Assembly: GCA_016926255.1 (NCBI GenBank)
Contig: JAFGOY010000069.1
Location: forward strand, 1 to 64,000
Reading direction: 5' to 3'
DNA: 64,000 bases
From: Anaerolineae bacterium
GTDB taxonomy: Bacteria > Chloroflexota > Anaerolineae > Aggregatilineales > UBA3940
In this document: one piece after another, positions 39,056-43,950 of the stretch
Layout: each line of letters opens with the position of its first letter
Position numbering within the stretch: the stretch's first letter is position 1
Made by a program: the position numbers and the translations under genes
The notes under the pieces: model-generated
Database searches by the model: none
Told to the model about the DNA's origin: nothing
What the model saw: the letters and a program-made list of their open reading frames with translations, nothing else

Positions 39056-41407
39056 ATGTCGGAGATCAGCCTACGGGCCTATGTTGAGTATATTGATGAC
39101 CGGCTGGCGCACGACGCGTACCAAGAAGTAATCGCGCAGTGCCGCCATATCCTTGAAACATTTCCTAAGTATGTCGAAGCCTACAAGCTCCTGGCAAGGG
39201 CCTTGGTTGCCCAGGAAGATTACCAGGACGCGCTTGACTTATTTCAGCGTGTCTTGAGTGCTGATCCGAGCGATTTTATTTCTCACGTTGGGATCAGTGA
39301 CTGCTACCGGGAAAGCGGCGCTCTTGACCAGGCGATCTGGCATCTGGAACGAGCCTTTGAACAGGTTCCCAACAACGTCGATCTCCAGGAAGCGATCAAG
39401 CAGTTGTATGCTGAAAGAGACGGGTCGCCGCCACGTAAAGTGCAGTTGACCGGTGGAGCATTAGCCCGCCTGTACATCAAGGGGAAGCTGTATTCACAGG
39501 CGATCCTCGAAATCAAAAAGGCACTGGCCCGCGACCCCGAACGTCTCGACCTTCAGCTATTGCTAGCCAAAGCCCTGTGGCACAATCACCAGGTTGTCGA
39601 AGCCGGAAAAGTCGCTGCCGAAATCCTTAGACGCCTGCCAAACTGCGTCGAAGCCAACCGTCTGCTGGCGTTGCTGTGGCAGCGGGCACAGCAGCCCAAA
39701 GAGATGATCGCCTTCCTGGATCGTGTCAGAGACCTCGATCCATATCTCGCCTATGAAATTGAGAAAAAGGGGAAACGCGCCCCGGCTGATACCTTTCAAC
39801 TCGAGATGCTGCGGTTTGATACAGATCGACCACTGACTGATGTCGGCACTGCTGACTGGGTATCGCAGATCAGCGCGATTCCAAAAGAACTGGGAGTGAC
39901 CGGGCCGTTGAAAGCGCCGGTCGAACCGTTCGCGGATGTTTCTCAAGCAGGCAGGCCGCCTGTGCCAATCCCCGATATGTCGGGCAGCCCGGACTGGCTG
40001 CAGGAAGCTCTATCTTCGCCAATGGGGCAGGAAGCCGGTGCAGGTGTTGAAGAACCCGATTGGCTTGGCAGTATTATGGCTGATGAACAGGCCGCCCCGG
40101 TGCAAGATTTTGCCGCTCCGGGCAGCGCACCAGCCGCAGCCGACGCACCCGATTGGCTGCAAGATGTATTGGCCCAACCTTCTGACGTGGAAACGTTACC
40201 TCCTGCTTCGCCATCTGCTCCTGGCGGTGCCCCGGATTGGCTGCAAGACGTACTGGCTGAGGACTCTTCCGGGGAACCATCGCCTCCGGCTGCTCCACCA
40301 TCTTCCGATGCGCCTGACTGGTTACAGGATGTGTTCGGGGAGTCGGTTTCTCCTGCGCCTGATTTACCGCCTCAGAGCGCGCCGCCGGTTGACGAGGGCG
40401 CTCCTGATTGGATGTCGGATATTTTCGGAGAGGCATCGTCACCAGCAGCAGTCGCAGATGCAGCGCCTCCTGTATCGGAACAGACCGGTCAATCTGATAT
40501 GCCCGATTGGATGCAGGATATCATCGGCGAGCAGGCATCAGCGCCTGTCGCGGAGGTGTCTTCACCTGCTGCCACGCAACCAGAACAGTCTGATATACCT
40601 GACTGGATGCAGGATATCGTCGGTGAGCAGACGCCAACGCCTGTCGCGGAGGTTCCCTTGCCTGCTGCTATAACACCTGATCAGTCTGATATGCCTGATT
40701 GGATGCAGGATATCGTTGGTGAACAGCCGGAAGGTGAGGCGGTTGAGGCTGCAGGCATAGAACAGGAAGCCATACCCGATGCCGCCCAGCCTGAACGGGA
40801 AGCCCCCCAATGGCTCACAAAGATACTTAGCGGCGAAGAAGATGAATCGTTTGTTGCCGAGGCCCCTGAACCGGAGCCATTTGACGAAGTTTCGGACGAG
40901 TGGCTCGATCAACTACTGACGGAAGGGGCAGAGTCAGAACCGTCAGTGCGGGCTGCTGAAGATGTCGCTGCTCCCGACTGGTTAAAAGATATTGATTCGC
41001 GCCCGGAGCAGATACCGGTGGCTGCCGAACCACTCAGCCTTGACGACCTGGGCGAGCTTGAAACCTGGGATGCATCGTTTCAAAGCAAACCGGCAGGCGC
41101 GCCTTCACCGACGAAGTCAGCAGAGCTTCCACCGTTCCTGGCTTCGGCTGAGGGGATGGCCGTCGAAGAATCGGCTGCCCCAGCGGGAAGAGAACTCCCC
41201 GATTGGCTCAAAGCAGCGCAGGATGTTGAAACTGTCAATGATCGGCCAGGGGATGATCTGGCGGAAGAATCAGAAAAATCCATACCCGATTGGCTTATGG
41301 CGGCGCAGGATATGATATCACCTGAATCGGATGAAGAGCCGGAAGAAAATCAGGATGAAATACCCGATTGGCTGCGTGGTGCAAATTCGGAGGACGGTGA
41401 AGCCTAG
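39056..41407 (+). CDS. TPR protein with a C-terminal array of Pro-Asp-Trp-Leu/Met motifs
   Basis: 783 aa, no signal peptide or membrane helix. Residues ~1-260 are TPR units (EAYKLLARALVAQEDYQDAL; HVGISDCYRESGALDQAI). Residues ~275-783 are Pro/Ala/Glu/Ser-rich, probably disordered, and carry about 16 short motifs of the form [PD]-[DEQ]-W-[LMV]-x-x-[ILVA], for example SPDWLQEAL, APDWLQDVL (three variants), MPDWMQDII, IPDWMQDIV, DEWLDQLL and IPDWLRGA. Three consecutive units form a 96-bp tandem repeat. The motifs look like amphipathic docking peptides for a partner. The following gene has the same motifs in mirror order. I do not know a functional assignment. Confidence 0.85.
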   Translation: MSEISLRAYVEYIDDRLAHDAYQEVIAQCRHILETFPKYVEAYKLLARALVAQEDYQDALDLFQRVLSADPSDFISHVGISDCYRESGALDQAIWHLERAFEQVPNNVDLQEAIKQLYAERDGSPPRKVQLTGGALARLYIKGKLYSQAILEIKKALARDPERLDLQLLLAKALWHNHQVVEAGKVAAEILRRLPNCVEANRLLALLWQRAQQPKEMIAFLDRVRDLDPYLAYEIEKKGKRAPADTFQLEMLRFDTDRPLTDVGTADWVSQISAIPKELGVTGPLKAPVEPFADVSQAGRPPVPIPDMSGSPDWLQEALSSPMGQEAGAGVEEPDWLGSIMADEQAAPVQDFAAPGSAPAAADAPDWLQDVLAQPSDVETLPPASPSAPGGAPDWLQDVLAEDSSGEPSPPAAPPSSDAPDWLQDVFGESVSPAPDLPPQSAPPVDEGAPDWMSDIFGEASSPAAVADAAPPVSEQTGQSDMPDWMQDIIGEQASAPVAEVSSPAATQPEQSDIPDWMQDIVGEQTPTPVAEVPLPAAITPDQSDMPDWMQDIVGEQPEGEAVEAAGIEQEAIPDAAQPEREAPQWLTKILSGEEDESFVAEAPEPEPFDEVSDEWLDQLLTEGAESEPSVRAAEDVAAPDWLKDIDSRPEQIPVAAEPLSLDDLGELETWDASFQSKPAGAPSPTKSAELPPFLASAEGMAVEESAAPAGRELPDWLKAAQDVETVNDRPGDDLAEESEKSIPDWLMAAQDMISPESDEEPEENQDEIPDWLRGANSEDGEA
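40490..40726 (+). repeat. 96-bp tandem repeat in the motif array
   Basis: Two full units (40490-40585, 40586-40681) and a partial third (from 40682), each coding QSD[MI]PDWMQDI[IV]GEQ plus a Pro/Ala linker ending in PVAEV and PAA. The units are in frame, so copy-number change keeps the protein open. Confidence 0.85.
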
Positions 41408-41541
41408 TTCGGGTTTGCAAAATATCGCTGCCGCCACTTTAATAGTAAGAGTATTGGAAAAGCGTCTTTTGCTCCATTGGTGTATAACTATCAACAGGGT
41501 TGAAACCAGTATTATCTAAGACGCTCCAGGAGGGTTTACAA

Positions 41542-43365
41542 GTGGCCCCTATTGATGAATCAAATAACGACGCCTCCGAGGACGTCCCGGAGTGGTTAAC
41601 TGACGGCGATCTTGACAGTGACGATGCCATTGCTTGGCTCGAAGAAATCGCTGCAAAGTATGATCCCGAATTTGAAGGTTCGAGTGAGGAGTCTTCTGGT
41701 TCTGTAGAACCAGAGGTCGAGCCGGATGAGGTCGAAGAGGAAGAAGTTCCCGACTGGTTGAAGACCGGAACTCCCGAACCTGTAGCTGAAGCGGTGCCGG
41801 AAGAAGAACCAGAAGAGGAAGAGGAAGAAGTTCCTGACTGGTTGGAGGCTGAAATGCCCGAACCGGTCGCCGAGGCCGTACCTGTGGCCGAAGCCGCGCC
41901 TGAAGAAGAACCAGAAGAAGAAGAGGACGAAGGTCTCCCCGACTGGCTGAAGGATGAAATGCCTGAGCCGGTCGCCGAGGCCGTACCTGTGGCCGAAGCC
42001 GCACCCGAAGAGGAACCAGAAGAAGAGGACGAAGACCTCCCCGACTGGTTAAAAGCAGTTGCCCCCGCTCCTGCTGCAAAACCGGTTGACGAAGCGGAAC
42101 CTGCTGTAGAAGAAGCGGGTGCTATGGCCTGGCTGGATGAACAGGCAGAGATGCAGGGAGTGGGTGCCGGTGAAGTCGTTTCGGAGGCTTTGACCGCCGA
42201 CAGTCCGCCGACCACGTCCCCTGATATCCCGCCGCCCGACGCTGAGGCGGAAGCCGTTTCGGATGAAGAACTTCCCGATTGGCTCAAGAGTGACGAGGTC
42301 AAAGAGGCGAAGGAGAAGGCGATGGTCACACCAACCGGTGAGCTAAGAGAAGAACTCGTCGCTGCTGCCATCACAGCCGAAGAAGAGGACATCGCCTGGC
42401 TGGAAAGTGCTCTTGAAGCAGAAGAACCGCCCGACGAAGACCTGCCCGACTGGTTGAAAGAGGAACCGGCAAAAGCGGTTGAAGAACCAAGAGCCGGGAT
42501 TGTAGAAGAGGCCGAGGCTGAAGCCGAAGAGGAAGAAGAAGAACTTCCCGATTGGCTCAAGGGGATCGAGGAGCAGCCCACCCTGTCCTGGCATATTTCG
42601 ACTTCTGAGGTGGTCGAGGCTGTCGCCGAGTCGGAACTGGCAAAGGAAGCGGAGGGTGAGGCTGAAGAGGAAGAAGAACTTCCTGATTGGCTCAGGGGGA
42701 TTGGTCCCAGTGCCGTACCCGCCGACACCGCGCCATTTATCGAATCTGTCGAAGAAGAGCCAGAGGAAGAAGAATTACCTGGCTGGATAACAAAGAAACC
42801 CGCCGAGGAAGAAGAGGAAGAAGGAATTCCCGATTGGCTGGCCGAAAAGCCCGTCGCGCCTGCGGCCCCGGTCGTCGAGATCGAGGAGGAACTGGAGGAA
42901 GAAGAGGAAGAGGTTCCTGATTGGCTGGCCGAAAAGCCTGCCGCGCTGGCAGTCGAAGCTGCTGCCGCCGAGGTTGAAGAAGAGCCGGAAGAAGAGGGAG
43001 AAGAGGCTCCCCACTGGCTTGCTGAAGCTCCCGCGGCCCCGGTTCGCGAAGAGAAGCCACCTGTACCAGCTGTGGCGCCTTCTGTCTCAATACCGTCCGA
43101 GATCGCCGGGGACTTCAACGAGCAGCTCAGGATTGCTCGCGAGAAACTATCGGCGAAGGCTATTGACGAAGCACTGCCGTACTATGAAAGCCTGATCGGC
43201 AGCAAGCAGATGCTCGATCAGACGATCTCCGACCTTTTGTATGCGATCAAGACCGAGGAGAAGATCAGCCCGCAGCTGCGCCGGGTGCTGGGTGATGCCT
43301 ACCGCAGCCAGGGCCAGCTTCAGGAGGCACTCGAAGCGTATCGACAGGCGCTCGATGAGTTGTAA
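41542..43365 (+). CDS. Acidic PDWL-motif protein with a C-terminal TPR
   Basis: 607 aa from the GTG at 41542, chosen because AGGAGGG (41528-41534) lies 7 nt upstream; a TTG at 41500 is open but lacks such a site. Residues ~1-510 are extremely Glu-rich with about 13 motifs: VPEWLTDG, VPDWLKTG, VPDWLEAE, LPDWLKDE, LPDWLKAV, LPDWLKSD, LPDWLKEE, LPDWLKGI, LPDWLRGI, IPDWLAEK, VPDWLAEK, APHWLAEA. AWLEE/AWLDE/AWLES segments alternate with them. The last ~85 residues form a TPR-like helical domain (RRVLGDAYRSQGQLQEALEAY). Layout mirrors the preceding gene. A strong terminator follows. Confidence 0.83.
   Translation: MAPIDESNNDASEDVPEWLTDGDLDSDDAIAWLEEIAAKYDPEFEGSSEESSGSVEPEVEPDEVEEEEVPDWLKTGTPEPVAEAVPEEEPEEEEEEVPDWLEAEMPEPVAEAVPVAEAAPEEEPEEEEDEGLPDWLKDEMPEPVAEAVPVAEAAPEEEPEEEDEDLPDWLKAVAPAPAAKPVDEAEPAVEEAGAMAWLDEQAEMQGVGAGEVVSEALTADSPPTTSPDIPPPDAEAEAVSDEELPDWLKSDEVKEAKEKAMVTPTGELREELVAAAITAEEEDIAWLESALEAEEPPDEDLPDWLKEEPAKAVEEPRAGIVEEAEAEAEEEEEELPDWLKGIEEQPTLSWHISTSEVVEAVAESELAKEAEGEAEEEEELPDWLRGIGPSAVPADTAPFIESVEEEPEEEELPGWITKKPAEEEEEEGIPDWLAEKPVAPAAPVVEIEEELEEEEEEVPDWLAEKPAALAVEAAAAEVEEEPEEEGEEAPHWLAEAPAAPVREEKPPVPAVAPSVSIPSEIAGDFNEQLRIAREKLSAKAIDEALPYYESLIGSKQMLDQTISDLLYAIKTEEKISPQLRRVLGDAYRSQGQLQEALEAYRQALDEL
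41851..42057 (+). repeat. 105-bp tandem duplication
   Basis: Unit 1 (41851-41955) and unit 2 (41956-42057, one codon shorter) are nearly identical, including over 30 bp without a mismatch. Each encodes EMPEPVAEAVPVAEAAPEEE, an acidic run and LPDWLK. The high DNA identity points to recent duplication. Confidence 0.88.
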
Positions 43366-43388: not shown

Positions 43389-43421
43389 AATGCCTCCCGG
43401 TCATGCCGGGGGGCATTTTTT
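43389..43421 (+). terminator. Strong intrinsic terminator
   Basis: A 12-bp stem (43389-43400 with 43406-43417, one G-T pair), 5-nt loop and a six-T run, 24 bp after the stop of the PDWL gene. Confidence 0.93.
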
Positions 43422-43497: not shown

Positions 43498-43950
43498 TTG
43501 GAAAAAACACTGGTCTTGATAAAACCCGACGGCGTGCAGCGCGGCTTGATGGGTGAGGTGATCAGCCGACTGGAACGTCGTGGTTTGAAACTGTCCGGAA
43601 TGAAATTCATTCAAATGGATGAAGACCTCGCTTCGCGTCACTATGCCGAACATGTCGGAAAGCCCTTTTATCCCGGGCTACTCTCGTATATCACCTCTGG
43701 CCCGGTGGTAGCGATGGTCTGGGAGGGCAAGCAAGCGATCAGCATCGTGCGTTCGACGATGGGCGTCACCAAACCCGCTGAAGCCGCCCCGGGAACCATT
43801 CGCGGGGACTTTGCTCTGGAAGTGGGCCGGAACATCGTTCACGGATCGGCGAATGAAGCCGACGCCGTCCGCGAAGTCGATCTCTTCTTCGCCCCTGCCG
43901 AGTTAGTCAGTTGGGAACGAAGCACCGATCCCTGGATTTTCGAAGATTGA
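43498..43950 (+). CDS. ndk: Nucleoside diphosphate kinase
   Basis: 150 aa, standard family length, from a TTG at 43498 with GAGGAGG (43486-43492) 5 nt upstream; the in-frame upstream extension crosses the promoter and terminator and is not coding. EKTLVLIKPDGVQRGL opens the protein, RSTMGVTKPAEAAPGTIRGD is the nucleotide site, and the phosphorylated histidine is H115 in RNIVHGSANEADA; the usual HGSD is HGSA. It balances NTP and dNTP pools by phosphate transfer from ATP. It is monocistronic, ending at a hairpin. Confidence 0.97.
   Translation: MEKTLVLIKPDGVQRGLMGEVISRLERRGLKLSGMKFIQMDEDLASRHYAEHVGKPFYPGLLSYITSGPVVAMVWEGKQAISIVRSTMGVTKPAEAAPGTIRGDFALEVGRNIVHGSANEADAVREVDLFFAPAELVSWERSTDPWIFED

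Follow-up and report, generated by a model that had tools for sequence, protein, structure and literature searches.

Organization of the A/B locus

The analysed window, a stretch of 64,000 nucleotides, carries two adjacent co-directional genes at 39056-43365, both as described in the first-pass annotation and designated here A and B. The product of gene A (39056..41407, + strand) starts with a TPR domain and continues as an acidic, probably disordered stretch in which 16 tryptophan motifs are arrayed. The N-terminal TPR module (residues 1-250; 39056..39805, +) was recognized by Pfam (TPR_19, E 6.8e-19, above the cut-off), by AlphaFold2 and in relatives. AlphaFold2 predicted a superhelix of some 14 helices with a pLDDT of about 97, and the Foldseek matches of this domain were generic TPR superhelices. 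The following part of A, about 520 residues, is acidic and was modelled with low confidence. The motif array (39848..41385, +) begins with ADWV at residue 268 and ends with PDWL at residue 772, with a mean spacing of 34 residues.

Gene B, read from its likeliest start (41542..43365, +), encodes 13 tryptophan motifs and then a C-terminal TPR pair (43102..43362, +). The Pfam matches of this pair (the last ~85 residues) were just under the cut-off; orthologues scored alike at the same place, and the pair forms the very C-terminus in both split and fused relatives (..LGDxYxRQGRLQEALxxYRxAL). The order of domains given earlier, with TPR N-terminal in A and C-terminal in B, is therefore right. The ORF finder placed the start of B at TTG 41500. 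An AGGAGG ribosome-binding site (41528..41533, +) stands eight bases before GTG 41542, and from this GTG the protein reads VAPIDESNNDASEDVPEWL, which corresponds to VAPPDEELRNDDTSPEDDIPDWL in the middle of a fused relative (L059); the first residues, VAPIDES...VPEWL, align with VAPPDEE...IPDWL of that protein. Owing to this ribosome-binding site and alignment, GTG 41542 rather than TTG 41500 is most likely the start of B.

A strong terminator-like hairpin of 13 pairs followed by a T run (43389..43417, +) lies 3' of B, and a promoter-like site was also found between B and the next gene, ndk (nucleoside diphosphate kinase; 43498..43950, +; Pfam NDK E 6.8e-55), which is a conserved neighbour of A/B in the phylum. 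The ATG start of ndk chosen by the ORF finder (43390) falls within the hairpin, and TTG 43498, located after GAGGAGG, is the more likely start. Because the hairpin and the promoter-like site intervene, co-transcription of B and ndk is doubtful, and ndk is probably a separate transcription unit in the window. A single operon of A, B and ndk is thus unlikely here, though the neighbourhood is ancient.

Tryptophan motif arrays

The strict motif PDW[LM] occurred 13 times in A and 10 times in B, while 2000 shuffles averaged 0.026 and 0.012 occurrences, respectively, and never gave more than 1. Composition cannot explain these counts, which answers the shuffled-sequence control proposed in the first-pass annotation. 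With the variants ADWV, PQWL and DEWL in A (16 motifs in all) and PEWL, PGWI and PHWL in B (13 in all), the earlier count of about 29 motifs is correct; B also holds three further AWL sites. A regular expression with a hydrophobic residue at position +3, suggested at the same time, fits A (14 matches) but not B (3 matches). The spacing, noted earlier as regular, is more even than random placement gives (1/20000 for A, 19/20000 for B). Part of this regularity results from recent tandem duplication of one-motif units, 96 bp long in the array of A (40489..40726, +) and 102/105 bp long in that of B (41774..42050, +).

The consensus over all sets of sequences was [DE][LIV]P[DA]W[LM][RQKSA][DE]. The residue after tryptophan was one of L, M, F, V and I in almost all instances, which had been collected with a pattern that itself required such a residue; the tryptophan sites of the window agree with this. 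The array first described as Pro-Asp-Trp-Leu/Met is real, and its core is better written as PxWL than as PDWL. In the AlphaFold2 model of A residues 1-430 (46 sequences), helices of 5-8 residues were predicted at the motifs amid otherwise low-confidence sequence.

Genome-wide motif counts were obtained by pattern searches. Codons for PDW[LF] formed two large clusters in the genome of the window, namely A/B and a gene on contig 9 encoding a protein designated C. Among the matches listed for two genomes, the clear clusters were A/B and C in one (G026) and C in the other (G023).

Some additional repeats and motif carriers were observed. B proteins of other families (L022:2836-5424, L031:14212-16584, L043:14631-17828) contain a second repeat, DPMAWLESLAARQGANPEEFxTAADL...VDEPGYVPY, in two to four copies, mostly in the N-terminal half; B of the window carries a degenerate form of it, DDAIAWLEEIAAKYDPEF. 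A 242-aa protein that opens with two MPDWL motifs (L071:5291-6016) was found in only 2 of 61 genomes. Near it, on the opposite strand (L071:8094-10181), an ATPase resembling the retron Eco8 effector was matched below the cut-off.

One protein split in two

Of 61 relatives, 60 matched the TPR domain of A at E<=0.001, mostly strongly and over the full length; across the phylum, 106 of 301 genomes matched it at E<=1e-15. In three members of the family to which the window belongs (L059, L060 and L061), TPR and array share one long ORF; that of L059 could be followed from the N-terminal TPR through the array to the C-terminal TPR. The fused form was also found outside the order (L234, L223, L224 and L228, of which L223 and L224 are Chloroflexia-like). 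In other families of the order there are two genes, A and then B.

A and B had been interpreted as a mirror-image pair. Their mirrored look arises because relatives within the family, as well as members of the phylum outside it, have them as one protein; the single fused TPR-array-TPR protein rules out a mirror-image duplication. By this comparison, A and B together correspond to one ancestral protein in split form. The split is unlikely to be an assembly or frameshift artefact, as B is equipped with a separate AGGAGG and start, and the split form prevails among the families of the order. Synteny, for which a check had been proposed, is conserved: A/B, split or fused, usually lies upstream of ndk, which comes next at 22 loci within the order and at 16 of 19 A loci taken from across the phylum.

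Selection on the motifs

Comparison of A between two related orthologues (L022 and L023) showed 91% identity in motif columns and 68% in linkers, and every tryptophan was kept (32/32). Nonsynonymous and synonymous codon differences between the same two loci were 12:47 in the motifs vs 371:402 in the linkers of A (Fisher p 3e-5), and 1:17 vs 141:266 in B (p 0.009). Motif columns were defined as those in which the pattern was present in any row, and the resulting bias should be mild. From these codon counts, the motifs are under purifying selection, although P, D and W change slowly in general and part of the signal could be general. Conservation in orthologues, another check proposed by the first-pass annotation, is borne out: the array is non-random, is maintained throughout the order and evolves under purifying selection. 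Chance or composition as the source of the motifs is ruled out by the shuffles together with the conservation against linkers.

Membrane protein C and its operon

Protein C (1136 residues) is unrelated to A and B and carries the same tryptophan motif. Its acidic array contains 11 PDW[LMVI] motifs vs 0.03 in shuffled sequence and is followed by a Rossmann-like domain with a hydrophobic helix on either side. No specific match was found for the Rossmann-like fold of the ectodomain between the two predicted membrane helices. Since basic residues adjoin both helices and a zinc ribbon is N-terminal in relatives, a cytoplasmic position of the array is probable.

The gene lies in a six-gene operon, DUF6754 - orf218 - C - orf232 - GlmL/MutL-like - barrel-sandwich protein (L070:4583-13111). 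The gene order was kept in 20 of 20 loci examined in the order, although at a few of them a gene escaped detection or was cut off, and the operon is also present in other classes of the phylum. Besides L070, loci L104-L123 and L268-L280 carry it. C was detected in 40 of 61 relatives and not in the other 21. Its locus does not adjoin A/B. No paper naming DUF6754 was found among open-licence papers.

The motif is shared with C across the phylum. In six genomes of other classes, C contained 13-42 tryptophan motifs by a broad pattern. Three genomes, which we take to resemble Chloroflexus, Roseiflexus and Herpetosiphon, had 42, 19 and 25 motifs in C, respectively, by the same kind of pattern. The array of C in the Chloroflexia-like genomes is composed of PAWL, PSWL, PTWL, PPWL and PDWL.

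Replacement of the motif in A

In the Chloroflexia-like genomes A is without PxWL, while C there keeps it; the sharing of the motif between A and C is therefore not universal. A reader common to both could only be a feature of Anaerolineae, unless A has switched its partner. The arrays of three Chloroflexia-like A proteins (L223, L224 and L226) contain 8-25 copies of PFSLEELGLSPEEI-type units. A search of four genomes, one of them the Herpetosiphon-like genome with its more diverged form, gave matches to this type of unit in A only. Within one of these genomes, presumably Chloroflexus aurantiacus, the protein upstream of ndk (L223:7430-12844) has about 25 copies of LTPFSLEELGLSPEEIAQLE, many of them nearly identical; we know of no described function for this motif. 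The unit PFSLEELGL was sought as a feature common to A and C of Chloroflexia and was present there in A only. Its possible remnants in A/B of Anaerolineae (4 vs 0.97 expected overall) were not convincing; the window holds one such copy, PLSLDDLGELE.

A different repeat was found in another family of the window's class (L237:7561-10143), where the unit of A is DWRADLRE and the array reads PAADWRADLRETTEALLAEA, with only the DW core kept. Because the repeat of A differs in this way, being PFSLEELGLSPEEI in Chloroflexia and DWRADLRE in L237, the architecture of A/B is, as far as these repeats indicate, older than any one motif of A, and PxWL is more constant in C. A domain similar to sigma-70 region 1.1 was detected inside the array of A in four Chloroflexia-like genomes (L223-L226; 24.9-28.8 bits vs the Pfam cut-off of 22.5). 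It was not found in the window, in six further proteins of Anaerolineae (A, B or fused), or in L228, L230 and L231.

Proposed scaffold and alternative explanations

The best explanation of these data, to which we give slightly less than even confidence, is that A and B are halves of one ancestral scaffold and share with the peptides of C one reader, which gathers the scaffold at a membrane complex. The two ends of the scaffold would be folded TPR modules, joined by a long acidic disordered string of [DE][LIV]PxW[LM]xx peptides. Each peptide may be a weak docking site for one folded cytosolic protein and would form a short helix once bound. The same putative reader would also take the peptides in the cytoplasmic tail of C, encoded in the DUF6754 - orf218 - C - orf232 - GlmL-like operon, so that many weak contacts could gather the A/B scaffold, with any cargo of its TPR ends, at the C membrane complex. 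We infer that the peptides are ligands, that A/B and C have one reader and that this reader bridges them. Multivalent docking, as suggested in the first-pass annotation, appears to be the most economical reading and is strengthened by the motif in an unrelated membrane protein; docking to the TPR domains, for which that annotation proposed a check, was unsupported, as the motifs stayed at low confidence in the one AlphaFold2 model made. Candidate readers are the TPR domains themselves, the GlmL-like actin-fold protein encoded beside C, and FtsA. A broader version, in which [DE][LIV]PxWL is a phylum-wide docking code linking the TPR scaffold to the DUF6754/C/GlmL-like complex, with the scaffold of Chloroflexia rewired to PFSLEELGLSPEEI and the architecture and ndk neighbourhood kept, seems to us rather doubtful.

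TPR domains are classical peptide readers. The TPR modules of A/B could thus be the readers of PDWL, which would dock in the TPR grooves of neighbouring molecules and of C and produce a self-associating network. TPR modules stand on either side of the array and show the strongest conservation within the protein, and in Chloroflexia, where C keeps PxWL, they could still read it. In addition, aromatic-acidic peptides are read by the TPR domains of kinesin light chains (PMC6214655, PMC5450233). However, no sign of docking in cis was seen in the model of A residues 1-430 (46 sequences), where the motifs had a pLDDT of about 40-60. The TPR domain was kept in Chloroflexia despite the replaced array of A, and tryptophan is followed here by Leu or Met rather than by an acidic residue. 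We consider this explanation unlikely.

Another possibility is that the arrays mimic the C-terminal hub peptide of FtsZ and are read by FtsA or another reader of that peptide, which would tie A/B and C to division or to the position of the divisome. The pattern [DE][LIV]PxWL[RQK] matches the FtsZ C-termini of the same genomes everywhere except at the aromatic position: the terminus is EMPAFLRRR in the genome of the window, DIPAFLRRR or DIPPFLRNR elsewhere, and [DE][IMLV]P[ATP]FLR in general. FtsA, which binds the FtsZ C-terminal peptide in model bacteria (PMC5832921), was present in 20 of 20 genomes. SepF was missing in all 20 and is rejected as a reader. Every FtsZ tail read has F where the arrays have W, which suggests separate readers for the two; division genes were not seen next to A/B or to C, and a likeness of six residues can be convergent, as in a proline-capped amphipathic helix. 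We regard FtsZ mimicry as improbable. As a separate observation, a second ftsZ-like match was found beside the canonical one in seven genomes (G178, G258, G338, G128, G202, G276 and G292).

The arrays could also be spacers, i.e., units amplified by slippage and kept for their bulk (charge and length) without a specific partner. Recent tandem units in the window and in relatives, the wholesale change of the A motif between classes and the fast divergence of linkers are consistent with this. Nevertheless, the conservation of every tryptophan while linkers change, the depletion of nonsynonymous differences in the motifs and the same motif in the unrelated protein C make pure spacers hardly probable. 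An attachment of A/B to RNA polymerase or the transcription apparatus, with arrays recruiting factors to it, is suggested by the region 1.1-like domain in four Chloroflexia-like A proteins and is very improbable, since this domain was not reported in the window or the other Anaerolineae proteins scanned and such helical domains could serve elsewhere.

If the proposed scaffold is right, it represents a conserved system for a phylum with few genetic tools, and its parts had no described link. The system is near-universal in the order sampled and occurs also in the Chloroflexus-, Roseiflexus- and Herpetosiphon-like genomes. The question of which protein reads PxWL becomes directly testable. Between classes, many motif copies were replaced in concert, which offers a clean natural case in which to study partner change in a multivalent scaffold.

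Comparison with known systems

At the level of the fold, both proteins consist in part of tandem TPR helical hairpins, with A above and B just below the Pfam cut-off. They resemble the named bacterial TPR families (PrsT, MamA, LapB and PilW) in this fold by Pfam, NCBIfam and structure, and the scores against the NCBIfam families PrsT, MamA, LapB, PilW and GltE were all far under the curated cut-offs (best 59.2 bits vs 312; MamA 44 vs 200; LapB 42 vs 474). No paper on disordered tandem TPR proteins of Chloroflexota was found among open-licence papers, and none of the open-licence papers found uses PDWL for such a motif, an earlier description elsewhere being possible.

The motif shares with the C-terminal peptide of FtsZ the pattern [DE]-hydrophobic-P-x-aromatic-L-[RKQ]; in the same genomes the FtsZ peptide ends a disordered linker. 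It differs from that peptide in having W for F and tens of internal copies instead of a single C-terminal one, and neither A nor B has an FtsZ domain or a tubulin fold. The kinesin light chain system is similar in pairing TPR proteins with short aromatic motifs that lie in disordered acidic stretches (PMC6214655, PMC5450233). Unlike its W-acidic motifs, tryptophan in A/B is followed by Leu or Met and not by an acidic residue; there is no motor, and the single-chain model gave no docking.

With many motif copies in disordered sequence that are conserved above their linkers, A/B conform to the general type of multivalent scaffold built from short linear motifs. They represent a conserved, probably multivalent scaffold system of Chloroflexota. 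Its general kind is known, but its motif and architecture are new, and the replacement of the motif is unexplained. The repeats of CsoS2 give multivalent binding and phase separation (PMC11365436). A/B are like CsoS2 and EPYC1-type linkers in being disordered proteins with repeated short conserved motifs. They differ from CsoS2 in that the repeat is PxWL and not VTG/Y, TPR modules stand at both ends and one motif carrier is a membrane protein; because the repeats differ by inspection, we do not assign A/B to CsoS2. By analogy, A/B and C would nevertheless be closest in their manner of working to disordered multivalent linkers such as CsoS2.
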